A stretch of DNA of 12,522 bases from an uncultured Ruminococcus sp. Its GTDB lineage: Bacteria > Bacillota > Clostridia > Oscillospirales > Acutalibacteraceae. The notes beneath the pieces are model-generated. The model ran no database searches. It had not been told where the DNA came from and saw only the letters and a list, made by a program, of their open reading frames with translations. The number at the start of each line of letters is the position of its first letter. The stretch's first letter is position 1. Location of the stretch: assembly GCA_902803125.1 (NCBI GenBank), contig CADCOZ010000073.1, positions 1 through 12,522 of the forward strand, given 5' to 3'. Both the position numbers and the translations under genes were made by a program. Below are positions 53 through 12,055 of this stretch, in pieces.

Positions 53-3000
53 ATGATTTTATCTGAGAATGAAAGAACAAAACTGCAAAATATTTTTAGT
101 TTGGATAAGCATGGCGGCTTGTACTATGAAGGGTCCCGTATCCAGAAAAATCAGGCGACCCGCTGGCTGCTGGTGGGCATCGGCGGCATGGGAACCAGTA
201 CCCTGATTCGTATTAAGCACGAGGTGATGACCCGCATGAAGCTGCCGGAAGACGACCATTCACAGCTGCCCGGTGGTATCAAATTTTTGGCGATAGATAC
301 CAAAAACGGCGATTTGGAAAAAATGTTCTATGCCGATACCAAATTCGACCGCAGTGAAATACTCTATACCGGTTCGGAAACGCCGACTTCCCGCAGTTCA
401 TGGGACATCATTGTTAACGGGATGTATAATGACAGACGGAACGATGAGAACGGTTATGCCGGTTTCCTGCCCCCTCAGCGTGACGACCTCGGAAGGTTGC
501 CCACCAGTCCGGCGGCAGGTGAAAAACGATTGCTGGGACGTGTGGGTTTGTTTTATCATCAAGAGAGAGTCAAGAGCTTTGTGGATCAGGTTGTCCGGTC
601 ACTGGCGGCCGAAGCCGGCACGGTGCAAATTTGCCTGTTCGCCGGATTGGGCGGCGGCACCGGTTCCGGCTCTTTCATGGATGTTGCCTTTTTGCTCAAA
701 CAGTTGGCACCCGCCATTACAACCTCTGCCACACCGATATCCGCTTATCTGTTTTTGCCGGATCTACAGAATGAATCTGCCGGTAATAACGGACGAAAGA
801 GCAACGCATTCGCCGCTTTGAAGGAACTGGATCAGCTGGATGTGCTTGGCAGTCAGATTCCTTCTTATTGGTTCGGCAAAGGCATTACCCGCATTAACTG
901 CACCGACACACCTTTGGACTATTGCTATCTGATCAACAGCGTTGATGACGGCGGATTAACCCATGAAACCGAAGAGGTCATTACGGATGTGGCGGAAAGT
1001 GTGTTTGAACTGATTGCTGACCAAACAGATAACGGTGAAGGGGCGGGAGCCGGTATTTCGGCCATTCAGGATAATGCCACTAACTGGTTTGACCAGAATA
1101 GCGGTGCGGCCTCGTTCCCGGCCAATTACCGCTATATGTCCACCTGTTCAACGGTCAAGCGTATTCCGTATCTGGAAATCAACACCCTTGTGGTCAGTAA
1201 GATGTTTGAGGCCCTTTCCGGCGTGTGGAACAGAGTACCGACAGAGGAAGATATGGTAGCGGCCTTGAGGGAGCTTGGCTTTGGTAATGATTATCTCACC
1301 CCCGGATTGGACTTAAAGACCGGCATTGAACAGACACTCATGTTAATGATAGAAGAAAATACCTCTTCATCTGCGGAACTGTCCCGCAAGAGATTATTTA
1401 CACCGGGAAGATATCAGAAAATCGATATTTGGGATGACGGCATTATCGGTTATGAAAAAACACGGCCGTGGATGGATGCCTATCTGGCCACGAAGGAGTA
1501 TCAAACGGCACTGAACGCCAACTTTTCAGCCATGACCGGCTGTAAACTGGACAGCAGTACCAGAACGGTCAGTGACGGAGAAAACATCGGTACACTGGAA
1601 GGAAGATTAAAAACCTATATGCTCAATGCTTTGGCAGATGAGCACAGAGGGCCTGTTTATTTGCGCAATATTATCGGTTCTCCCTACTGCAATAATCTGA
1701 TCAACCTCTTTAACGGTATGAGCAGTTATTTTGCACGGATATCCGATCAGGAAGCCGCCGAAGCCAATTTAGCGGTTTCTGATGCCAACAACGGGTGCAA
1801 GACGATTTTTGCAAGACACAATCACAACAGAAGGAATATGGATGCCTTTTTACAGGCGGTGGACGATTGGCAGACCCATAAGCGATTGGCCGATAAGTAT
1901 TATTATATGGCCAAGCTGTGCGAAGTGATTGTCAAGGTGTATCAAAAATACTATGACCTGGTCATTGAGTTGCTGGCCGATACAGTGCTGACCGTAAAGG
2001 ATATTTTTGCCGCTAACTATGAAACCTTAAAAGCCAGAGAAGAGGGTTATCAGGAACACCCGGATAACAGTTTGCTGATTACTCCCATGAAATTTATTGA
2101 GAATCCGGCCTATCAGCCGACTTTTGATTCTTGTGTTGACCAAGCCAAAATCACCTTCCTTGCTTTCCTGCGGGACAATATGCGGGATTGGATCGGCACA
2201 CAAATCGCCCATACACAAAAGAGAGCGGATTGTATTCCACAAAGAGAACTCCGAGCGATCCATATTGACGAGAGTTTGTCCGGCTTTATCTCTCAGTTCC
2301 TTAATACCCTGTATCAAACCGTATCCATCGAACAGATTTATCAAAGCAAATATCCGACCAATTTTACGGAAGGCGTTCATAGAGAATTGACGGATATGTA
2401 TCAAAGCGTCCATCCGTTCTTCCACAAGAATGCATTGGATACAGCGGGTACGGTACAGGATTTTACGATTTTCTTTGTGCCGGCCACGAACAATCCGAAT
2501 ATAAAAACAGAGGCACAGAGCTGGCAGAGGAACCCCGAATATGTTAATAATGTTCAGATAATGTATAGTGCCGATGTCAGCCGCATTTCGGTGGTAAAGG
2601 TGGCCGAGGGCTATTCCATCATCAATAACGCCTGCGTAAAGGATTGGGAAAAAATCTATGAAACGTATCCCAGTGTGTCACAGCATATTGACTATCGCTG
2701 GAGAGAAGCGTTCCCCAGTCCCCGAACGGAAACCTCTTGGCAGGATGATACGGATCGCTGTCAGCATACCATCGACAGAAACGAAAAGTATCGTGAGATG
2801 TTCCGCTACTGCCGGCAGTATGGCGTGATTGTTCCTTCCGATGATCCTACGGACCCGCCGTTAACCGCCCTGCTGCACGTTGGGTTTGATCAATTTCTGG
2901 GGCAAACGCCGGAAGAATACCTTGACAGCGTGAAAATTTCCGGCGACACGATTGAGGCAAAAAAACGCTCTCTGGACATCATCTTTAAGAACATCTGGAG

Positions 3001-4114
3001 AAACGGCACCACCCCCGTTAAGTTAAGCGGTATGGGTACCTATAAAAATACCGCCAACAGCACCGATGAAGATCGGATGGAAAACATTCAGGAAACGACC
3101 CTGCTGAACTCCTATCTTTGTGACTGTATCGAGCGGGAATATCGCCTGCTGCAAAAATATGCGGCCTTAGCAGACAGTCTTACCCTGCCGGAATACTATA
3201 TTAAGGCATGGGTTTGCGGCATGATGGCCTACAGCAACAGCACCGGCCGCAGTATTTTGCATTCCAGAGATACGGAAAGACCTCTTTCGAAGGATGGCTC
3301 TATCCGCATGAACCGAGATGATTTTGATTATGCTCTTTACCAGCGTTTTGTCCCTGTGCTGAATGAAAAAATGAATGCGTCCAAAACGTGGAAGGAATGC
3401 ATTGATGAGCATTGGAACAATTCAATGGAAATCGAAAGCCGATTGGTTTTAGCGGGTCGACTGAAAACCAGAGTGAGTGCCTTTGTGGAAGCCAAAGAAA
3501 AGTATCTCCAAATGGCTCGTGAGGAACCGAATCCGAAGGAAAAAGTACACTACCTTCGTATTGCGAATTTTTATGAAACCGGCTTGATCTATGCCAATGA
3601 GATTCTCAGCGTATTGATTTCGGAAGCACCGCTTTACTATATCAAAGCGATGGTTTGTCAGCTGATGATTGTCAGCAAAGATAAGACAGCCTATCTGCTT
3701 CGTGTGAACAGTACCTGCCGTGAAAATCTTGCGGCCGTGTTAACGGCGGCGGAAACAGTATCGAAGGGAGATCCCCTGTTGGATTACAAGCTCTATACGT
3801 TTATCCAGCAGCTTTTGAAGCAAAAATCCCCTGACGGAAAGGTTTGGAGTGAGGTTATCAATGCCAACTGGACACAGCTGTTGGAAAGCATTGAAAAAGA
3901 CAACAGTGTTCTTTCCCTTGACAAAGGAGAAAGTCTGGCAGACAAAGCAAGGGTTCGTCTGGAGGAAAGACGCCATAAATTCCAGTCTGTTTTGAAGAAT
4001 GCACAGTTGGATAGCGATGAACGTTATTTCTATGAAGAAGGCATTCGCTATTGTAAGGAATTGCTTGATCAGATTGCGGTTGATACAGATGACGATGACC
4101 CTGAAGTTCTTTAA
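53..4114 (+). CDS. Tubulin/FtsZ-like GTP-binding protein (Tubulin_2-type) with a long helical C-terminal region
   Basis: This is a large cytoplasmic protein, with no signal peptide or membrane segment seen. Its N-terminal third carries tubulin/FtsZ nucleotide-binding signatures: a glycine-rich T1-like loop GIGGMGTST at residues 42-50, an acidic T2/T3-like turn IDTKNG near 81-86 (D82), and the hallmark T4 loop AGLGGGTGSG at 197-206 after a hydrophobic strand. A conserved-looking NAFAALKEL helix follows near 260-270, then the strand YCYLINS. This order matches the Pfam Tubulin_2 family. I could not find an FtsZ-type T7 catalytic motif. Roughly 950 residues follow, mostly helical in appearance, including a duplicated segment (about 1045-1127 and 1192-1280), and the protein ends in an acidic tail (DTDDDDPEVL). 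It is first in the five-gene operon. The likely role is a GTP-binding, possibly filament-forming, subunit working with the TRAFAC GTPase encoded downstream. The tubulin assignment is strong, the function inferred. Confidence 0.9.
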   Translation: MILSENERTKLQNIFSLDKHGGLYYEGSRIQKNQATRWLLVGIGGMGTSTLIRIKHEVMTRMKLPEDDHSQLPGGIKFLAIDTKNGDLEKMFYADTKFDRSEILYTGSETPTSRSSWDIIVNGMYNDRRNDENGYAGFLPPQRDDLGRLPTSPAAGEKRLLGRVGLFYHQERVKSFVDQVVRSLAAEAGTVQICLFAGLGGGTGSGSFMDVAFLLKQLAPAITTSATPISAYLFLPDLQNESAGNNGRKSNAFAALKELDQLDVLGSQIPSYWFGKGITRINCTDTPLDYCYLINSVDDGGLTHETEEVITDVAESVFELIADQTDNGEGAGAGISAIQDNATNWFDQNSGAASFPANYRYMSTCSTVKRIPYLEINTLVVSKMFEALSGVWNRVPTEEDMVAALRELGFGNDYLTPGLDLKTGIEQTLMLMIEENTSSSAELSRKRLFTPGRYQKIDIWDDGIIGYEKTRPWMDAYLATKEYQTALNANFSAMTGCKLDSSTRTVSDGENIGTLEGRLKTYMLNALADEHRGPVYLRNIIGSPYCNNLINLFNGMSSYFARISDQEAAEANLAVSDANNGCKTIFARHNHNRRNMDAFLQAVDDWQTHKRLADKYYYMAKLCEVIVKVYQKYYDLVIELLADTVLTVKDIFAANYETLKAREEGYQEHPDNSLLITPMKFIENPAYQPTFDSCVDQAKITFLAFLRDNMRDWIGTQIAHTQKRADCIPQRELRAIHIDESLSGFISQFLNTLYQTVSIEQIYQSKYPTNFTEGVHRELTDMYQSVHPFFHKNALDTAGTVQDFTIFFVPATNNPNIKTEAQSWQRNPEYVNNVQIMYSADVSRISVVKVAEGYSIINNACVKDWEKIYETYPSVSQHIDYRWREAFPSPRTETSWQDDTDRCQHTIDRNEKYREMFRYCRQYGVIVPSDDPTDPPLTALLHVGFDQFLGQTPEEYLDSVKISGDTIEAKKRSLDIIFKNIWRNGTTPVKLSGMGTYKNTANSTDEDRMENIQETTLLNSYLCDCIEREYRLLQKYAALADSLTLPEYYIKAWVCGMMAYSNSTGRSILHSRDTERPLSKDGSIRMNRDDFDYALYQRFVPVLNEKMNASKTWKECIDEHWNNSMEIESRLVLAGRLKTRVSAFVEAKEKYLQMAREEPNPKEKVHYLRIANFYETGLIYANEILSVLISEAPLYYIKAMVCQLMIVSKDKTAYLLRVNSTCRENLAAVLTAAETVSKGDPLLDYKLYTFIQQLLKQKSPDGKVWSEVINANWTQLLESIEKDNSVLSLDKGESLADKARVRLEERRHKFQSVLKNAQLDSDERYFYEEGIRYCKELLDQIAVDTDDDDPEVL

Positions 4115-4130
4115 CCCAAACGGACGAAGA

Positions 4131-4193
4131 TTCCTCTGACTGAACGCCAGCGCCCTTCTGATCGGAGGGCGTTGGCGGCTGACCGCAGAGGAA
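4131..4193 (+). repeat. Long imperfect hairpin in the gene 1/gene 2 spacer
   Basis: The inner stem pairs 4145-4158 with 4164-4177: 14 bp including two G-T wobbles, closed by a 5-nt TGATC loop. An outer stem pairs TTCCTCTG (4131-4138) with CAGAGGAA (4186-4193), with an asymmetric internal loop between the two. It begins 17 nt after the stop codon of the tubulin-like gene. No T-run follows on either strand, so it is not a canonical intrinsic terminator. It could stabilise the 3' end of the upstream message, mark a processing site, or belong to a palindromic repeat family. Confidence 0.7.
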
Positions 4194-4241
4194 AAAACTC
4201 ATGAAATATCAACACAAAAGTTTTTCAAAGGCTTGCGGAGT

Positions 4242-4336
4242 CCAGAGCCAAGCCTCTGGTGAGAGGTTTGGAGAGCAAAGCCCTCCAACAGCATTCCGTG
4301 GTGTTGGTGAAGAAAGCGATTTGAAGGAGGAATGCT
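4242..4336 (+). promoter_or_regulatory. Structured leader of gene 2 with overlapping hairpins that can mask its ribosome-binding site
   Basis: Several inverted repeats overlap so that they cannot all form at once: 4242-4247 with 4254-4259; 4248-4257 with 4262-4271 (10 bp, one G-T, GGTG loop); 4268-4276 with 4280-4288 (9 bp including an A-C mismatch); and 4285-4290 with 4302-4307. The loop of the last hairpin contains GCATTCC, which is complementary to GGAATGC at 4329-4335 and would cover the 3' half of the gene 2 Shine-Dalgarno site in a pseudoknot-like fold. It does not match any riboswitch class I recognise. Alternatively it is a dispersed hairpin-rich intergenic repeat with no switching role. 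Confidence 0.45.
4325..4330 (+). promoter_or_regulatory. Shine-Dalgarno site of the 607-residue unknown protein
   Basis: AGGAGG lies 9 nt upstream of the ATG at 4340 and selects that start over the in-frame ATG at 4367 (codon 10). Its last two bases are part of GGAATGCT (4329-4336), the exact complement of AGCATTCC at 4290-4297. Confidence 0.8.
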
Positions 4337-4339
4337 TTT

Positions 4340-6163
4340 ATGGATATTCGAGAAAAGGTTATTTCCATGGAAACTTCTGACACACACTTGACGGTTCATC
4401 GAAATCCGTTTCATTCGGATCGGGTGACCATTTACCTGATCATCAGCGGCGAGCCTGTTTCCCCAAACGATACGGATTTTGCGGAAACACAGCTGCTGAA
4501 GGCTTATCTGAAGGAATATTTTCTGACACAGAATGCATTATATCTTTCCTTGTCGGCCAAAGAAAATGATGGCGAAACGGTTTTTCAGCGTTTTGAAGAA
4601 CAGTACAATACGGCTATCAGGGACAACCAGCTCCGATATACCAGTTCTTTTGCGGTGGTGCCGGTGTTCATGCAGGGAGAACAGTTTCCGGAATCCCTTT
4701 GGCAGAACTTTCATCAATGGTTCAGCAAAATGCTGGTCTATATTTCACATCATGCCATCAATGATATCTGGCTGCCGGCGGTGCTGTTTTCAGGGCGTGA
4801 CTATTTCAAAAACGATGCGTTTATTCAAAAAATCCTGTCCAATGAGCAGCTCCTCAAAAGAAGCCTGCCGCTTTTGATACTCTATCCCCAAAACAGCCAC
4901 GGCTTTATTCCGCTGGAAAACCGCCTGAAAACGATTGCGGTGCTTTCACTCCTGCTGCCGTGTCAGACGAACAGTGTTTTCGGAAAAACAGGCGACCCCG
5001 ATATTCAATGCTATGCGGCACGGCTGATGACCATACGCAAGCCCAAAAACATGGAAAAACTTCTGCGAGCCAAAAGCCTGTTGGAATTCTTTGAAAAAGA
5101 TCCCGAAGATGCGGATAAACAGCTGAAGCAGTTGGGGGAAAAGCTATCCGAACTGTTATATGAAGTATGGGACAGGTTGGAAAGCCTGCCGTGTAAACGG
5201 GATAACGGCGGTAATCATTTGGCCTATGACAGTAAAACCATTAGCTTGGCTCCCTTTTACAGTATTCTGTTTGATAAGAATGCCGGCAGTGACCAAAAGC
5301 AGAAGAAACTGCGTTTCTTTGCCCAAAAATATTACCTGCGGTATCTGCCGTTGTACACTCCTTTGCTGAATGATATTGACTGCCGCAGCTTTTTCCGAAA
5401 ATATCAGGATAGCTACGGAAACTATCTGACCGGCCTGTCCTATCTCTTTGATGAGAGCTTACAGCAGTCACTTTTGAACAGGATAGCACCCCTTCAGCTG
5501 TCACAGAACCATATATTGCCGCAGGATCATGAAATCACGATTTATCTGACGGATTTGTCGAAAGAAATGACAAACCGCAGTACCGCATTTTATCAGAAAA
5601 TGTTCACAAATGCCTCTTGGTTCCTGAAAGCCAAAGAGCGTTTTTCCGGTTTGCAAAGCTGTCTGACCACCTTGAAAGAAAGCCTTGATGAACGTATTCG
5701 CTTTTACAGCGGCCTTGAAGGTTCTGTAGATACCTCCGGCATTCAATGGGGCGACAAGCACCGGAAAGAACTGATGGACGTATGGCTTGACCTGCTGTTT
5801 TCCGAAAAGTCAGAAGAGGATTTTGTGGACATCTTTTGTCAAAAGCTGTTTGAGATCGCAGGGTTCTCACAGGAAAGCATAACGGAGTATCTGCGGCATT
5901 TCGACCATCATATTGACAACGGGAAGGTGCTGAAATCGTGGCAAAAGCTGTTGGACGTTGATACAGCAGGGATTGCACCGGCTTCCGGTGTGGTGGAAGA
6001 AAACTATGTTATGTGCAGCAGTGCCTTAACGGGTAAAGAAGTTCTCGAAAAAATTCATCCTGTCAGCGAATTGATAGATACAAAAGAAATGCAGGACCGC
6101 ATTGAATTTGTTTTTCTGGACAGAGCGGGTAAATGGATCAGCACACAGGAGGGAAACAAATGA
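4340..6163 (+). CDS. Uncharacterised protein of the tubulin/GTPase operon
   Basis: I do not recognise the family. The 607-residue protein has no signal peptide and no clear membrane helix. The N-terminal 210 residues or so alternate hydrophobic strands and helices (IYLIISGEP near 31, SFAVVPVFMQGE near 102, IWLPAVLFSGRDYF near 140, LPLLILYPQ near 177), which suggests a Rossmann-like alpha/beta domain. It has no P-loop and no tubulin GGGTGSG motif, so nucleotide binding is not supported. The central part (about 230-480) looks helical and charged. The C-terminus returns to mixed strands (VMCSSALTG; IEFVFLDRAGKW). Its stop overlaps the start of the next gene (ATGA), indicating translational coupling. 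By position it is likely a structural or adaptor subunit of the same machine. A degenerate nucleotide-binding domain is possible but unproven. Confidence 0.85.
   Translation: MDIREKVISMETSDTHLTVHRNPFHSDRVTIYLIISGEPVSPNDTDFAETQLLKAYLKEYFLTQNALYLSLSAKENDGETVFQRFEEQYNTAIRDNQLRYTSSFAVVPVFMQGEQFPESLWQNFHQWFSKMLVYISHHAINDIWLPAVLFSGRDYFKNDAFIQKILSNEQLLKRSLPLLILYPQNSHGFIPLENRLKTIAVLSLLLPCQTNSVFGKTGDPDIQCYAARLMTIRKPKNMEKLLRAKSLLEFFEKDPEDADKQLKQLGEKLSELLYEVWDRLESLPCKRDNGGNHLAYDSKTISLAPFYSILFDKNAGSDQKQKKLRFFAQKYYLRYLPLYTPLLNDIDCRSFFRKYQDSYGNYLTGLSYLFDESLQQSLLNRIAPLQLSQNHILPQDHEITIYLTDLSKEMTNRSTAFYQKMFTNASWFLKAKERFSGLQSCLTTLKESLDERIRFYSGLEGSVDTSGIQWGDKHRKELMDVWLDLLFSEKSEEDFVDIFCQKLFEIAGFSQESITEYLRHFDHHIDNGKVLKSWQKLLDVDTAGIAPASGVVEENYVMCSSALTGKEVLEKIHPVSELIDTKEMQDRIEFVFLDRAGKWISTQEGNK
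6147..6152 (+). promoter_or_regulatory. Shine-Dalgarno site that fixes the gene 3 start
   Basis: AGGAGG lies inside the end of the preceding gene, 7 nt before the ATG at 6160. It argues against the longer in-frame start at 6133, which has no ribosome-binding site and would only add nine residues encoded by the site itself. Confidence 0.8.
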
Positions 6164-6924
6164 TTAAATTTGAAGATATCAATTGTGACTATGATGGAAG
6201 GGGTCGTTTTCGTTTTTCATGGGACAGAAAACAAAAAGATCCCTCTGTAACCAGAGTGATTCTCTTTGAGGTGACTGAAAAAGACCCGGACCTGTATAAC
6301 CTTTCCGATGCGAATCTTCAGCGGGCGAAGATTTCGGACGGCAGTGTGACCTTTCAAAGTGCGGCAGAGAGGGAACCGGAGCATCGCTTTATTATCCTGG
6401 CCGCAGGGGATAACCCTGCCTCTGACAGCAGCGATAAACCCGAGGCGATTGCTAAATGGTGTCGCGAACAGGGGATTGATAATCTGATTGTCAAGGGTAT
6501 CTCCATTGAAGGAACCTTATACTATCAGGTCAATCAGGCCGATGAATATGCAGCCAGTAACCTGTCGCTGGGTACCCGTTTAACGCCGCAAACCGGTCTG
6601 ACACTGCTGGAACTGACCTTGTATCCGCAGGAGGGCTTAGAGATTCCCCAAGGATACATATACTATTCCTACACCTTCAACGACCGCCCCTTTGACTTTA
6701 TGATCCCGCAAATCATTGATCAAGAAACCACCCTGCGTATTTATGTTCCGGACGGATTTGAAAACTTTGTGGTGAAGCAGGAACGATCAAAAATTGAGGT
6801 GCTGTATCAATATCCCGATGAAGATCAGCCGGCCGGCTGTTTCTTGGGCAGACTTTGGAAGAAGCTGCGGAGAAAAAAGCAGTCATCGACAGGCGATAAG
6901 AAAATATCGAAAAACAGGATGTGA
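6160..6924 (+). CDS. Small beta-strand-rich protein of the tubulin/GTPase operon
   Basis: This 254-residue protein belongs to no family I can name with confidence. The first 80 residues or so (GRGRFRFSWDRK, then SVTRVILFEV, then HRFIILAAG) have the strand spacing and conserved tryptophan of a fibronectin-III-like or related beta-sandwich. The remainder is also rich in short alternating strands (IYYSYTFNDRPFDFM; TTLRIYVPDGF; KIEVLYQY), suggesting a second beta domain. The C-terminus is strongly basic (RLWKKLRRKK, then KKISKNRM). There is no signal peptide, so a cytoplasmic scaffold or binding subunit is more likely than an exported adhesin. Its ATG overlaps the stop of the upstream gene, and the downstream GTPase starts 6 nt after its stop, so the three are probably made together. 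The fold call is tentative. Confidence 0.85.
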   Translation: MIKFEDINCDYDGRGRFRFSWDRKQKDPSVTRVILFEVTEKDPDLYNLSDANLQRAKISDGSVTFQSAAEREPEHRFIILAAGDNPASDSSDKPEAIAKWCREQGIDNLIVKGISIEGTLYYQVNQADEYAASNLSLGTRLTPQTGLTLLELTLYPQEGLEIPQGYIYYSYTFNDRPFDFMIPQIIDQETTLRIYVPDGFENFVVKQERSKIEVLYQYPDEDQPAGCFLGRLWKKLRRKKQSSTGDKKISKNRM

Positions 6925-6930
6925 GATTCT

Positions 6931-8799
6931 ATGTTTACTTGTAAATGCGTATATTGTTTCAGCCACATAAAAAAAGAAGAACTGCTTTTCCGTGTGGCTG
7001 ACCTGATGGAGCGTCTGAAGCCGAAGCCGCAGCCAACGCCGGAGCCTGAAGCACCCGAAGAAAAGGAAACAGACACTTGGTTCAACGAAAATGAAGGGGC
7101 AACGGCTTCTTTTCTCAAAAAGAATGTGATGATAGACGAAGGCGAAGAGGGAGAAGAAGGGGAAGAATATGATGAAAATTCGCCCCTTAATTCACCGATG
7201 GGAGGTCAAGCCTCTGCGGCTTCCCGTCCCTATGGCGGCGGTACGGAGGAATCGATGGATTCCGATGCCCTGATAGACCTGAAAGATGCCTTGGAACAGA
7301 AAAAAGCCGTTTATGAAATGGAATCGAATGTTCAGACACAGCAGGTCAAAGAGGTACTGAAGATATATGATCTTGAATGGAGCGGCCAATCCTATGAGGG
7401 AAAAATATATGTTTCGGAGATTAACCGTTACTGCCCTGTGTGCGGGGAAAAGGTCATTTCCTCTATCGGGAGATGTCCCATCATCACCATTGGGCTTATC
7501 GGTCATCAAGCGGCCGGTAAAACGGTTTATCTTACCATACAGGATTATTTTCTGAGGAAATACAGTGCGATGGAAGATGACGATCAAGACATGATGGTTC
7601 CCGCTGCACAGCGGGATGACCGCAGAAGAGAGTTGACCGTGCCGGGAGGAAGGCTTTACTTTTCACGAGAGGATTCCTATCTGGGTATAACAGAAGAAGG
7701 TCAGGCAGAGGTTGAAATCATTTCGGATGCTTCCAAAAATTTTAACAATGATGCTCGTTTTCCGGACAGTACCGGTTTCATTCCGCCGCCGTATTGTATT
7801 CGGGTGGGTTACCGCAGAAAAGGTGAAAACGTGGAATGCAGTGAATGCGTGGTTTGCTATCGTGATATTATGGGTGAGGTCTATACGACATCCCGACCGG
7901 AGGATTTTGAAAAAGCACGGTTATTTCTTCAGCGAGCCGATGCTTTTTTGGTGCTGACCGATCCGACGGTTTTTTCTTTGGGAGAAGCCTATGGCCATTG
8001 TCGAGATTTTGATAAAAACCTTTCCGAAGGACTCCAGGAGAAAATAAGCAAAATTTTCGAGGGTGTCCAAGGTGTTATCAATAAGCCCTGTGTATTGATG
8101 GTGACCAAACAAGATGAGATTGAGGACTACATTAAGAACCATATTGGCAAGTTATCCGGCTTTTCCATGGCTGATCCCATTGTAGCACCGGGCTTTTCCA
8201 TGGCCTTTTCTAAAGATAGTAATTTTGCGGCGGCCTTTCGTGAGCTGAGCGAAAGCACCCGCAAATGCTTCAAAACCTTCACATACGGTTCTTCTTGGTA
8301 CGCTTTGCTGGATAAGCATTTCGACATTCGTACCATGCCGTTTATTCCGATTACCGCCATTGGCGATGAATGTACGGTTTATGAACACCATTTAGCGGCT
8401 AAGGATGATAAGGGAGAACTGATCAGATTAAGAGAATCACAATATGATGAATGGAAGCGGGAGCAGGAACAGAAAAAAAAGGAACAAGCCCAAAACGGTT
8501 CGCATGACGGTGAGACCGGCCATGCACCCAATCAGCCGGAATTTGAGTTTGTTCCGCCGTCTGCTTATATCGACAGAGCCATCGAGAAGATCAAGCACCG
8601 TTTCCTGTTTCTGCCGCTGCTGTATCTGCTGGATTTCTTCAGTGTCATTCCTCCGATGTTCCGTCCCGAAAGCTATGAAACCGTAGACGTGACCCAAAAA
8701 TGCTGGTTCTTTTTTGAGCGGGTAGTGGGAAGCCATGATACGTTCAGGGACGATTATTTGAATACTTGGTATGAATTTGTGTCCAAGAATAAGGAGTGA
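6931..8799 (+). CDS. TRAFAC-type GTPase with split zinc ribbon (DO-GTPase2-like)
   Basis: G motifs appear in order: a P-loop GHQAAGKT at 191-198, a G3-like DIMG at 312-315 after the strand CVVCYR, a strand LVLTDP at 342-345, a G4-like TKQD at 392-395, and a possible G5 ITAIG at 474-478. It also has cysteine pairs typical of a zinc ribbon: C4, C6, C9 and H12 at the N-terminus, then C168, C171 and C182 just before the P-loop. About 140 residues of proline-rich and very acidic sequence (about 30-50 and 69-80) separate the two halves. Near the C-terminus are a charged helix (EWKREQEQKKKEQ) and a hydrophobic stretch at 558-577 that could touch membrane or a partner. The layout fits the TRAFAC-clade DO-GTPase2 family, described as partnering GAP1 in predicted conflict systems. 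The start ATG has only a weak AGGA at 6916-6919, so coupling to the gene just upstream is likely. GTPase confidence is high; the subfamily name is from memory. Confidence 0.88.
   Translation: MFTCKCVYCFSHIKKEELLFRVADLMERLKPKPQPTPEPEAPEEKETDTWFNENEGATASFLKKNVMIDEGEEGEEGEEYDENSPLNSPMGGQASAASRPYGGGTEESMDSDALIDLKDALEQKKAVYEMESNVQTQQVKEVLKIYDLEWSGQSYEGKIYVSEINRYCPVCGEKVISSIGRCPIITIGLIGHQAAGKTVYLTIQDYFLRKYSAMEDDDQDMMVPAAQRDDRRRELTVPGGRLYFSREDSYLGITEEGQAEVEIISDASKNFNNDARFPDSTGFIPPPYCIRVGYRRKGENVECSECVVCYRDIMGEVYTTSRPEDFEKARLFLQRADAFLVLTDPTVFSLGEAYGHCRDFDKNLSEGLQEKISKIFEGVQGVINKPCVLMVTKQDEIEDYIKNHIGKLSGFSMADPIVAPGFSMAFSKDSNFAAAFRELSESTRKCFKTFTYGSSWYALLDKHFDIRTMPFIPITAIGDECTVYEHHLAAKDDKGELIRLRESQYDEWKREQEQKKKEQAQNGSHDGETGHAPNQPEFEFVPPSAYIDRAIEKIKHRFLFLPLLYLLDFFSVIPPMFRPESYETVDVTQKCWFFFERVVGSHDTFRDDYLNTWYEFVSKNKE
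8791..8796 (+). promoter_or_regulatory. Shine-Dalgarno site indicating a GTG start for the GAP1-like gene
   Basis: AAGGAG ends 8 nt before GTG at 8805, giving an N-terminus of MISQHLMLRC. The alternative GTG at 8796 lies within the end of this site and the stop of the GTPase gene, so it would have no usable ribosome-binding site. An ATG at 8803 meets a stop at once. Confidence 0.7.
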
Positions 8800-8804
8800 T
8801 CCAT

Positions 8805-11800
8805 GTGATTTCTCAGCACTTGATGCTTCGCTGTAAAAAAGGGTTTTACGATAAATCCCTTTTGGCCGGCATGAAAACCGCCGCAGTTTCGGATTCCTGG
8901 ACACAATATACAGCCGGTTTCCGACAGGAGTTGGAAAGCAGTATTGCCAAAGCGGTTCTGCCGGACAATGTGGATACGCCAAACGGCGGCAACAGAGGCC
9001 TTCTTCGTTTGAGTTATCTTGGTGACTGTTTGATCGTGAACCGCATTTTTCGTGTCAGCGATCGGTGTGACTTCCGCGGCAACAGTACGTTTGTTCATTC
9101 CTACTGTATTGATGGCCCTGACAGGGAAAAGGTGTTGGCACAACCGGCGACCCTGTCCCAAATAAAGAGCTTTGACGACTATCAAAGTGTCAATACCCGC
9201 TGCGGCGGTTTGGATACCAATCATCCCATTCCGCTGAATCAATCGCTGGTCATGCCGGATGAAACCGCCTCGTTTTCCAAAGAAGATGTCTTATCCTGCT
9301 GTGGCAAAGACGGCTTGGCTCGTATCATTACAGCGGTTTGTCGGGTTTTATCCGGCAGCGGTGTGCTGTCTGTACTGCTGCCGCCGCTGACAGAAGATAC
9401 CTGGACAAAAGAAGGCGGCAGCTTATTGGGCGAAGAGATCATGCTGTCACTGCTGCAACTCCTGCCGGATTGTTTGTCAAGGTTCTTTAGCGGTATTTCT
9501 TATTGGAATGAAAGCAACAGTTTTTACGGTTTGGAACCGATCAAAATTCGTTTTTGTACGCCCCGTTTCCTGTCTGATTTGAAGAAATATCCGAATATGT
9601 CTTTGATACAGATAACGGATAAAGGTGTACTTTCTTCGGTAAAGCCGTGTTTGTTCGGAGAGTATTTGTGGGATATTCGTAATGACAAAGAAGCGGTTGC
9701 GGCTTTCCACCGCTTTATTCGGGAGCTGTTCGGTGAAGCGGTCGATACAATTGGCAAACCGTCCAAGCTGATGGACACGGTCACACAGCTGTATTGGCAC
9801 CAACATCCGGATGACCCGCTGGCACAAAGTATTGCGGGCGACTTTATTGAGATGTTTGGCGGAAGTCTGAACCGATTCCCCAACATCAGAAACTACTGTC
9901 ATGAGGTCATTCAATATTGTATCGATCATCGCATACGGCTGGACGAGAAGTTTGAAAAAACGCTGAACAGCACCAAAAAGCTGTCCAAACCAATGGTGCA
10001 GTGTCTGATGCAGCAGATTATCAAGGGATGGGCTTCACAAGGCACCATAGACCGCATGACCAAACTGTTGGTTTCTCAGCGATCCCCTACCGCTGAAGCG
10101 ATTTTTAAGGAACAGATTCAGAAATCCGGCCACATATCGCTGATGGAAGATACCATGCTGCGGCTGATGTGTGCCTATTACATTGATGCACAGGAGGAAG
10201 AACTGCCATCGCGTCTGTATCATATTTTGAACGGTGCGGCCATCTGGTTTAATAACGAGCAGGATTATGACCACTACCTGTTTTTACTGCACTGTCTGTT
10301 CAGCACCGAAAGAACTTTTTTATATCTTCCGGATCAGCTGATTTCGCCGGAAGAATGGTATGAACGGAACTGCGACAGAATGATTTATCTTTTCCAAGAA
10401 AATGACCGCTATGCCAAAGCGGTTGGAGAGATTCTGCTATCGCATTATTTGTGCATCAAAAAGAGTACCCACTTTATCCTGTACAGTGAACTGTTATTCA
10501 AGCACTTTTTCCAAAAGGCCAATACCCTTGTTCGCTGTCAGCTGTGCCGACAGGAAACGGTTTTTCGGGTGTTCATCAAACTGTCTATTCCGCTGATTTC
10601 CACCCAAACGGGATGGCGTTATTGGGAATCTGCCTATCGGGAAATGTTGGCCAAGGATTGGGGCTGCTTTCAAAAAACGGATCACTTTCTGGACGATGAA
10701 ACGGTACAGGATCGCTGTATCGGGCTTTGTCGGGTGGAAAGCGCTCGTGTGGCTCTCCGACAGCGTTCCTCGTGGCCAATGATCCGCCGTGTTTTTGCAT
10801 ACACCACACAAACAAGAGATATCTGTCAAATCATTGACTACTTTTACACAAAGGTGATGAACAAAGAGGAAATCCTACAGGATATGTCCGCCGATCCGTG
10901 GATTTATCCCTTTGTGCTGTATCGTATCCACGTTGATAAAACCGCCACAAGGGAAGAACTCATACGGTATGCCAACTGTCTGCTTCAGCGGGAGGACTGT
11001 TTTGACCGTTTGATAGAAGCCGCCGAAGATGAATCCTTTCAAGAGGATGTTCCAAAAGCCGAAAATTCTCCCTTGACCAAGGTGTTGATCAATTATTATT
11101 GGTTTTTCTGGTCTGTTAAATATCCTGCACATAATATTGCCGAGCATGAAACGATAGCGGCCTTGTGTGAAGAAGAAAAACGGCTGGCCCCGCACAGCTT
11201 CGGTAAGGCCATCATGAAATCTTTCGGCCGATTGTTCCCGCTGCATGGATGTTTGCTTGACCTGCCGCCGGAATCGGTATCGTTTGTTAACAACTGCATG
11301 GTAAAGTATCAATGGCAGAACATCTGCGGTTTGGATACGGATGAGGTGGTTCGTTGGCAGTTTCGGGAAATTATTGACCATCTACTGGCAAAAAACAATC
11401 TTGACCCGCAGGATGACAGCCGCCTTGACTGGCGGTATCTGCGTCCCCAAAGAGGACAGCCGGACAGCAGACTGCTTTCGTTACTTCCGTTTATCAAGAA
11501 TAAGCTGGAAGAACAGACGAATAATGATAATGAACCGATTCATGAAGGCTGTGCCATTTTGGCAGTGATTTATGTGCTGTCTATGCAGAGAAGAACGGAT
11601 AAATATGCATGGGTGTATTTGTCCCTGCTGAACTCCGGCAGTCCATCGAGTATGCATTGGCGTTCGGCCGGCTACCTGATGCTGGCTCTGAAATATTTGT
11701 GCATGATGAATGATGACTATTTCGGCAAACTCTACAGCTTTAGAGCAAGCTGTGTCGGCATTTTTGCGGAGAAGCTGATGATTTCGGACGGCAAACAACA

Positions 11801-11969
11801 CGTTCTGGCCACCAAGGGAACTTTTGATCAATATGTCAAAGACCGGTTGGAAACAGAATTGTTTTCCCAATTGAGCAATAAAGCGGCAGAACTTCATGAC
11901 GAAGATTATAAACAGATGTTCCCACAGAAACATCACTTTACGCCCCCGAAGAAAAAGAAAAAAGGATAA
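8805..11969 (+). CDS. GTPase-associated protein 1 (GAP1)-like protein
   Basis: This large 1054-residue protein starts at GTG and lies directly after the TRAFAC GTPase gene (5-nt gap). The N-terminal 100 residues resemble the GAP1 N-terminal domain: an opening QHLMLRCKKGFYDKSLL, then SYLGD at 70-74, and a DFRGNSTFVHSY block at 89-100. That block corresponds to the family pattern of an Arg-Gly pair followed a few residues later by a conserved His. The remaining 900 or so residues are mostly helical, Trp/Tyr/Leu/Cys-rich and without a P-loop, catalytic triad or membrane segment that I can recognise, consistent with the GAP1 middle and C-terminal regions. It ends in a lysine-rich tail (PPKKKKKG). 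GAP1 proteins are proposed partners or regulators of their neighbouring GTPases in predicted conflict systems. The biochemical activity is unknown, and the family call rests on N-terminal pattern plus gene order. Confidence 0.82.
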   Translation: MISQHLMLRCKKGFYDKSLLAGMKTAAVSDSWTQYTAGFRQELESSIAKAVLPDNVDTPNGGNRGLLRLSYLGDCLIVNRIFRVSDRCDFRGNSTFVHSYCIDGPDREKVLAQPATLSQIKSFDDYQSVNTRCGGLDTNHPIPLNQSLVMPDETASFSKEDVLSCCGKDGLARIITAVCRVLSGSGVLSVLLPPLTEDTWTKEGGSLLGEEIMLSLLQLLPDCLSRFFSGISYWNESNSFYGLEPIKIRFCTPRFLSDLKKYPNMSLIQITDKGVLSSVKPCLFGEYLWDIRNDKEAVAAFHRFIRELFGEAVDTIGKPSKLMDTVTQLYWHQHPDDPLAQSIAGDFIEMFGGSLNRFPNIRNYCHEVIQYCIDHRIRLDEKFEKTLNSTKKLSKPMVQCLMQQIIKGWASQGTIDRMTKLLVSQRSPTAEAIFKEQIQKSGHISLMEDTMLRLMCAYYIDAQEEELPSRLYHILNGAAIWFNNEQDYDHYLFLLHCLFSTERTFLYLPDQLISPEEWYERNCDRMIYLFQENDRYAKAVGEILLSHYLCIKKSTHFILYSELLFKHFFQKANTLVRCQLCRQETVFRVFIKLSIPLISTQTGWRYWESAYREMLAKDWGCFQKTDHFLDDETVQDRCIGLCRVESARVALRQRSSWPMIRRVFAYTTQTRDICQIIDYFYTKVMNKEEILQDMSADPWIYPFVLYRIHVDKTATREELIRYANCLLQREDCFDRLIEAAEDESFQEDVPKAENSPLTKVLINYYWFFWSVKYPAHNIAEHETIAALCEEEKRLAPHSFGKAIMKSFGRLFPLHGCLLDLPPESVSFVNNCMVKYQWQNICGLDTDEVVRWQFREIIDHLLAKNNLDPQDDSRLDWRYLRPQRGQPDSRLLSLLPFIKNKLEEQTNNDNEPIHEGCAILAVIYVLSMQRRTDKYAWVYLSLLNSGSPSSMHWRSAGYLMLALKYLCMMNDDYFGKLYSFRASCVGIFAEKLMISDGKQHVLATKGTFDQYVKDRLETELFSQLSNKAAELHDEDYKQMFPQKHHFTPPKKKKKG

Positions 11970-12013: not shown

Positions 12014-12055
12014 AAATCCCCGTAAACCTTGTTGATAAGGTTTACGGGGATTTTT
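12014..12055 (+). terminator. Intrinsic terminator of the five-gene operon
   Basis: A perfect stem pairs ATCCCCGTAAACCTT (12016-12030) with AAGGTTTACGGGGAT (12037-12051) around a GTTGAT loop, extendable by two A-T pairs. It is followed by a short T-run (12051-12055) on the plus strand. It lies 44 nt after the stop of the GAP1-like gene. Because the neighbouring transporter gene converges on it, the same stem may also stop minus-strand transcription, although the T-run on that side is poor. The stretch 12056-12149 shows no gene. Confidence 0.88.

Follow-up and report, generated by a model that had tools for sequence, protein, structure and literature searches.

The stretch of DNA described here (the window) spans the full 12,522 bases of contig CADCOZ010000073.1, from an uncultured Ruminococcus sp. 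whose assembly (GCA_902803125.1) consists of 410 contigs at 74% completeness. The window carries an operon for a tubulin-like protein (T), a zinc-ribbon GTPase (G), a putative GAP1 protein and two further proteins (O2 and O3). To judge from the sequences, the locus is a strongly diverged variant of the GAP1-N2 DO-GTPase tubulin type that lies beyond the current family models. It is assigned to this type in the broad sense, not to its strict Firmicutes version. GAP1-N2 DO-GTPase systems were described by Kaur et al. 2020 (PMC7159879); in the sections of that paper used here about 52% of them are tubulin-centred. The original prediction had regarded the tubulin as an addition to known GTPase-GAP1 pairs, which does not hold, as no other theme is as frequent around GAP1-N2 genes as tubulin in those sections; the union of tubulin, GTPase and GAP1 is already in print there and is not new. 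The reading as DO-GTPase, GAP1 and tubulin is itself supported.

Five open reading frames, all on the + strand, occupy positions 53-11969 (53-4114, 4340-6163, 6133-6924, 6931-8799 and 8796-11969). The five genes are real and make up a single operon; the set is not due to chance, because T scores 144 bits with Tubulin_2 (cut-off 27) and the same gene order occurs, within the reach of the contigs, in four other loci. The features of the window are as follows.

53..4114, + strand: T, Tubulin_2-type protein of 1353 residues (PF13809, T4 loop, profile match to the tubulin of genome G125, internal repeat)
4145..4177, + strand: hairpin in the gap between T and O2 (folding against shuffles)
4340..6163, + strand: O2, 607 residues, predicted alpha/beta N-terminal part followed by helices (relatives in the same slot of 4 loci)
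6160..6924, + strand, frame also open from 6133: O3, predicted tandem fibronectin type III (FNIII) pair (structure model and fold searches)
6931..8799, + strand: G, zinc-ribbon DO-GTPase (TRAFAC) of 622 residues (motifs, PF19993, profile match to the G125 GTPase)
8796..11969, + strand: GAP1, putative divergent GAP1-N2/GAP1-M protein of 1057 residues with a lysine-rich C-terminal tail (profile-profile comparison)
12014..12053, both strands: inverted repeat of 17 bp between GAP1 and a convergent EamA gene, probably a two-way terminator (scan and folding)

T matches Tubulin_2 (PF13809) with E 6.9e-42, and the T4 loop GGGTGSG named in the original prediction was located at residue 200; the form GGTG[SA]G is kept in all ten tubulins examined. 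By profile comparison T matches the tubulin of G125, a genome of the same GTDB family, with E 5e-34 over 779 columns that run from the GTPase domain into the C-terminal part, and the tubulin of locus L051 with E 9.6e-24. The C-terminal part of T contains an internal repeat (residues about 1048-1126 and 1195-1278; 30% identity over 86 residues, E 1.5e-10). The tubulin of genome G264 is shorter, and aligned to T it shows a gap across the second repeat copy. Searches of the PDB sequences gave no match with T, nor with G.

The motifs predicted for G were likewise located: the P-loop GHQAAGKT at residue 191, DIMGE at 312, TKQD at 392 and CxxC pairs at 6 and 168. P-loop, DxxGE, KxD and the four zinc-type cysteines are invariant in the five window-type GTPases, each with one CxxC near the N-terminus and a CPxC just before the P-loop. 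G has the Walker B glutamate (in DxxGE) of a TRAFAC DO-GTPase and the zinc-ribbon cysteines of GAP1-N2-type systems, in an arrangement that fits one ribbon or two. With the DO-GTPase2 model PF19993 (cut-off 27 bits) the GTPases of the window (25.3), G264 (25.1) and G029 (17.1) fall below the cut-off, and those of loci L008 (28.5) and L009 (28.8) above it. The profile match to the G125 GTPase has E 3e-14. A further C-x-x-C (C306 and C309; window positions 7837-7878, G residues 303-316) stands directly before DxxGE in all five window-type GTPases (window, L008, L009, L010, L012) and in none of three canonical ones. From its place beside switch II this pair could serve redox or metal gating.

The fifth protein had been called GAP1-like. 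No Pfam GAP1 model matches it, but the label is right, since the protein matches canonical GAP1 by profile-profile comparison. The profile of nine window-type GAP1 proteins aligned with that of five GAP1 proteins from genomes of family f129 with E 4.2e-6 over 313 columns (4-342 against 9-341); none of 30 column shuffles was as good, and in a field of 36 pairs of profiles this one came far ahead (score 62, next best 33). Of the five f129 proteins, L051 was scanned with Pfam (GAP1-N2 1.5e-43, GAP1-M 1.6e-25); the remaining four were linked to it by BLAST. Among the nine window-type proteins the Pfam scan gave a single GAP1-M match (E 0.2, below the cut-off), and the GAP1-N2 model matched nothing in the window's genome. 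The assignment to GAP1-N2 plus GAP1-M is thus one of profile-profile comparison and not of Pfam, and by this comparison the protein is best described as a strongly diverged GAP1-N2/M. Two designed helical-repeat chains found among the PDB sequences (E 0.011 and 0.08) were regarded as chance matches.

Scans of the five proteins with Pfam, NCBIfam and PADLOC left O2, O3 and GAP1 without a relevant family match. O2 and O3 had been listed as unrecognised, which still describes O2, without a named family, but not O3. The structure model of O3 reached a predicted local distance difference test (pLDDT) score of 76, and its Foldseek and VIA-align matches are mainly FNIII chains, so that O3 is predicted to be a tandem FNIII pair. 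An FNIII protein is an expected part of GAP1-N2 systems in the cited sections of PMC7159879, and O3 has the predicted fold of one. Relatives of O2 occupy the same slot in four loci, and their alignment has a single invariant column, D586. The O2 model is poor overall (pLDDT 52.8), with residues 28-204 predicted as alpha/beta. Naming the fold was tried and given up: the hits (FMN reductases, TIR, hydrolases, FtsZ) form a generic alpha/beta list, and no Foldseek E was below 0.001. The position of O2 is that of the tubulin partner, or second tubulin, in the canonical order; even the L051 protein in that slot matches Tubulin_2 but weakly (E 0.028). O2 and the canonical partner show a weak, collinear likeness that none of 50 and none of 40 shuffles equalled. 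Kinship is not claimed, because pairs of profiles with no relation to each other come close to these scores (24.2 and 23.8; O2 and the partner, 25.6 and 24.3).

As far as PMC7159879 sets out the Firmicutes tubulin-theme systems in the sections used, the window has in common with them a tubulin with C-terminal extension, a zinc-ribbon DO-GTPase with Walker B glutamate, a GAP1-N2/M protein and an FNIII protein; the vWA-YtkA-like gene described there for the Firmicutes version is present in the window's relatives. The slots and order of the window are also found in five f129 genomes (5.6-7.3 Mb) with recognisable GAP1. The window differs in having one recognisable tubulin, a GAP1 that Pfam does not detect and the extra C-x-x-C before DxxGE. 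It also has no multi-span second vWA gene at the O2/O3 junction, whereas all five f129 genomes have one between the partner and the FN gene. O2 and O3 are adjacent or overlapping in the window, L008, L009, L010 and L012, with no such gene between them; this concerns the junction, the rest of the genome not having been searched. All eight genomes with a GAP1-M match were inspected, G961 being left unannotated. Five of them, all f129, show the tubulin order; by eye, G1092 has two HSP70-like N-termini, and in G1090 no tubulin or GTPase was recognised. The 21 matches to DO-GTPase2 fall in 17 of 245 genomes, and loci from five of these were inspected, one (L038) with a Pfam scan.

Closer to the window, genome G072 of the same genus has a seven-gene operon (L102 155-15674) in the canonical order: first vWA gene, tubulin, a 591-residue protein, second vWA gene, a 196-residue protein, DO-GTPase2 (28 bits, cut-off 27) and a 670-residue protein. 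Unlike the window it includes the second vWA gene, and the sequences are hardly alike; in profile comparison its 670-residue protein was not detectably like the window GAP1, nor the 591-residue protein like O2. The operon of G125 (L038/L066), in the same GTDB family, comprises a vWA gene, tubulins, proteins of 657 and 230 residues, a DO-GTPase2 (38.5 bits) and a GAP1-M-like protein (21.8 bits, cut-off 24). It has two tubulin genes, unlike the window, and profiles of O2, O3 and GAP1 gave no one-to-one match with its single GAP1, 657-residue and 230-residue proteins. With the GAP1-N1/GASH-type systems, as outlined in the sections used of PMC7159879, the window shares DO-GTPase and GAP1; those systems combine a GASH protein with a pair of DO-GTPases and with effectors that are enzymes, whereas the window has a tubulin and the FNIII pair alongside its single GTPase. 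A literature search, with most subscription journals and preprints outside its reach, found no experimental study of tubulin-GAP1 systems.

The co-occurrence on which the original prediction depended was found: the genes recur in the same order, as far as the contigs reach, in L008 and L009, in G264 and partly in G029. Genome G084, from the same genus as the window, has a contig (C194) identical to L008. The intact contig of G264 carries, in this order, a vWA gene with membrane segments, tubulin, O2, O3, GTPase, GAP1 and a 336-residue protein with one predicted span. One G084 contig stops inside the tubulin gene, with a vWA gene just upstream (vWA E 5e-15, and a YtkA-like stretch of 23.6 bits, cut-off 25.9), and another starts inside the tubulin and runs through GAP1; G029 has the system on a contig that ends before the tubulin. 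With 53 bases of contig ahead of T, the operon may lack its 5' end. By analogy with G264 and G084, a vWA gene likely stands upstream of T beyond the contig. The five genes claimed are thus real and co-linear, but the operon probably has six or more, with the vWA membrane protein first. In the window's genome a single vWA relative with membrane segments was found, on a different contig and adjoining gat genes, as in G029 and G084. Such gat-adjacent genes were seen in G000, G029 and G084 (L064 1456-3435, L065 6817-8808, L063 1-1953) and are 54-67% identical, against 84-90% for GatA/GatB; this looks like a separate conserved gene.

The system is not genus-wide, as a conserved housekeeping context would be: window-type GAP1 was found in 3 of 64 genomes of the genus (the window's own included). 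It was found in 2 of 394 genomes of an order sample and 1 of 391 of a class sample, each count including the window's own genome, and in 1 of 297 of G264's family, which is G264 itself. These samples overlap, and many of their members are incomplete metagenome-assembled genomes. A large protein search with GAP1 gave at least six matches, the window's own included; this is a lower bound, because the same search with O2 returned only O2 though 41%-identical relatives exist. In pairwise comparison of the same-genus genomes G000, G084 and G029 the system proteins are 22-52% identical, some O2 alignments spanning 32-82 residues only, and GatA/GatB 84-90%. The G029 GTPase scores higher with that of G264, a member of another family (221 bits), than with those of G084 (145) and G000 (133), and the G029 GAP1 slightly favours G264 (277, against 270 and 249); O3 shows the opposite trend (65.5 with G264, 85.9 with G000). 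The patchy occurrence and the two ranges of identity fit an accessory, rapidly diversifying system, which, on the sequence scores, is perhaps moving horizontally. The insertion site was sought in G264 at the GAPDH loci of its genus; no other flank or system gene of G264 stood beside GAPDH in any of the seven stretches inspected (of 12 listed), and for this reason no empty site could be read, nor was evidence of a defence island obtained. In the window the contig ends on both sides, and the site is not readable.

Tubulin_2 itself occurs in 10 of the 64 genus genomes: G000, G084, G072, six without a matched GTPase, and G026 (a fragment). These six carry a different operon (L096, L097, L098 and L100 in G001, G017, G004 and G076; L099 and L101 in G062 and G033), in the order secreted-looking protein, tubulin, protein starting with FFIN or FLIN, and large membrane protein; no GTPase was matched within the fetched stretches. 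The Pfam scan covered two of the six; in L096 the large protein showed a transglutaminase-like domain (E 2.6e-7), and in L099 a metallopeptidase-like DUF6782 stretch (E 9.3e-7).

The start of O3 is probably at 6160, where GGAGGG lies upstream; from this start O2/O3 and G/GAP1 overlap by 4 bases each, and 6 bases lie between O3 and G. The gap from T to O2 is 225 bases long. The hairpin at 4145-4177 follows T without a U-tract; folded with its neighbours it reaches -42.6 kcal/mol (z -5.2, equalled by none of 200 shuffles). In L008 a strong hairpin (2046-2179, z -3.0), unlike the window's in sequence and also without a U-tract, stands just 3' of the tubulin stop codon, and in L012 the corresponding gap is 30 bases only. 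Such hairpins perhaps act in mRNA processing or give the tubulin a different dosage. The single strong terminator of the original prediction corresponds to the hairpin at 12014-12053 (-27.6 kcal/mol, z -5.75). The terminator scan, however, reported it on the - strand only; the + strand tail reads GGGGATTTTTG and is T-rich, and a two-way terminator is probable, shared with the convergent EamA transporter gene that is cut by the 3' contig end. An Rfam search of the window gave no match. Downstream of GAP1, TetM-like translation-factor genes (named by eye) were seen in L008 (9871-10317) and G264 (L013 3667-6267), with a DUF1810 plus PARG-type protein between GAP1 and the TetM-like gene in G264 (L013 2245-3576).

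A conflict role by containment, decoy or cell death was predicted for these systems by comparative genomics, as stated in the sections used of PMC7159879; the mechanism outlined here combines this with the parts of the window. A trigger, either a phage component or a disturbance of the envelope, would be met by the vWA protein and/or the FNIII pair. GAP1 would act as coordinator and relay the signal to the zinc-ribbon DO-GTPase, whose GTP state might set a threshold. This switch would let the tubulin, partnered by O2, assemble on the inner side of the membrane with GTP as the driving force. The assembly itself may be the effector, which would wall off the infected cell, act as a decoy or bring the cell to a halt; among the window proteins no separate enzyme with a toxic activity was recognised. 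Parts, motifs, gene set and order, and the patchy, fast-diverging inheritance are firm at the level of sequence. The best overall reading, an accessory, membrane-linked, GTP-switched assembly with a role against phage, is one on which we are evenly divided, because the predicted phage role is part of it. Phage is probably the target; the function is a predicted one throughout. The narrower proposal of an immune machine with the cytoskeleton as its sole effector is a speculative one that we doubt: an outward vWA sensor and the GAP1/DO-GTPase threshold switch would lead to a tubulin assembly that contains phage or stops the cell, in a gut-Clostridia subtype marked by one recognisable tubulin and C306/C309.

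The main rival is a machine for envelope stress or wall maintenance, in which the vWA protein senses wall or membrane damage outside the cell, the tubulin is a scaffold under the membrane and phage is not the target. In its favour, the vWA proteins of G084 and G264 have hydrophobic segments at both termini, and the C-terminus of GAP1 is hydrophobic in G264, in L009 and in protein P0006. The near-membrane location suggested in the sections used of PMC7159879 agrees with it, as does the action in membrane stress predicted for DO-GTPases in a 2024 paper on the phage shock response. The GAP1 proteins of the window and L008, however, have no hydrophobic C-terminus, and occurrence in so few genomes of one genus, with system proteins so much more diverged than GatA/GatB, is unlike a maintenance function; this rival deserves attention but is on balance unlikely. 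A conventional effector hidden in O2, such as a TIR-like enzyme, with the tubulin serving only to localise it, is very improbable: for the poor O2 model the scores of ketoreductases, flavoproteins and FtsZ fall within 1-2.5 Z, and D586 lies outside the alpha/beta part. As a tubulin-family protein with a T4 loop, T could also belong to a DNA-partition or cytomotive system like TubZRC on a mobile element. TubZRC systems feature a TubR DNA-binding partner and centromere repeats and are not known to include DO-GTPase and GAP1 partners. T stays below the cut-off of PF00091 (21 bits against 33), T was not found in the phages searched nor window-type GAP1 in the viral contigs and plasmids searched, and we give this explanation almost no credence.

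With the gene union known since 2020, what is left of interest is the unusual predicted mechanism. Should a tubulin assembly under the control of a second GTPase prove to be a defence effector, it would represent a mechanism distinct from nucleases, NADases and pores, and a parallel in bacteria to immunity that is driven by assembly. Pfam misses such loci, and as the window GTPase falls just under the cut-off and its GAP1 is unscored, Pfam-based counts probably underestimate these systems in Clostridia. Together with its relatives, the locus offers a compact version of the tubulin-GTPase-GAP1 system for testing. As far as the sequences tell, it is a form, rare and quick to change, that gut bacteria have of a machine predicted to be of immune type.

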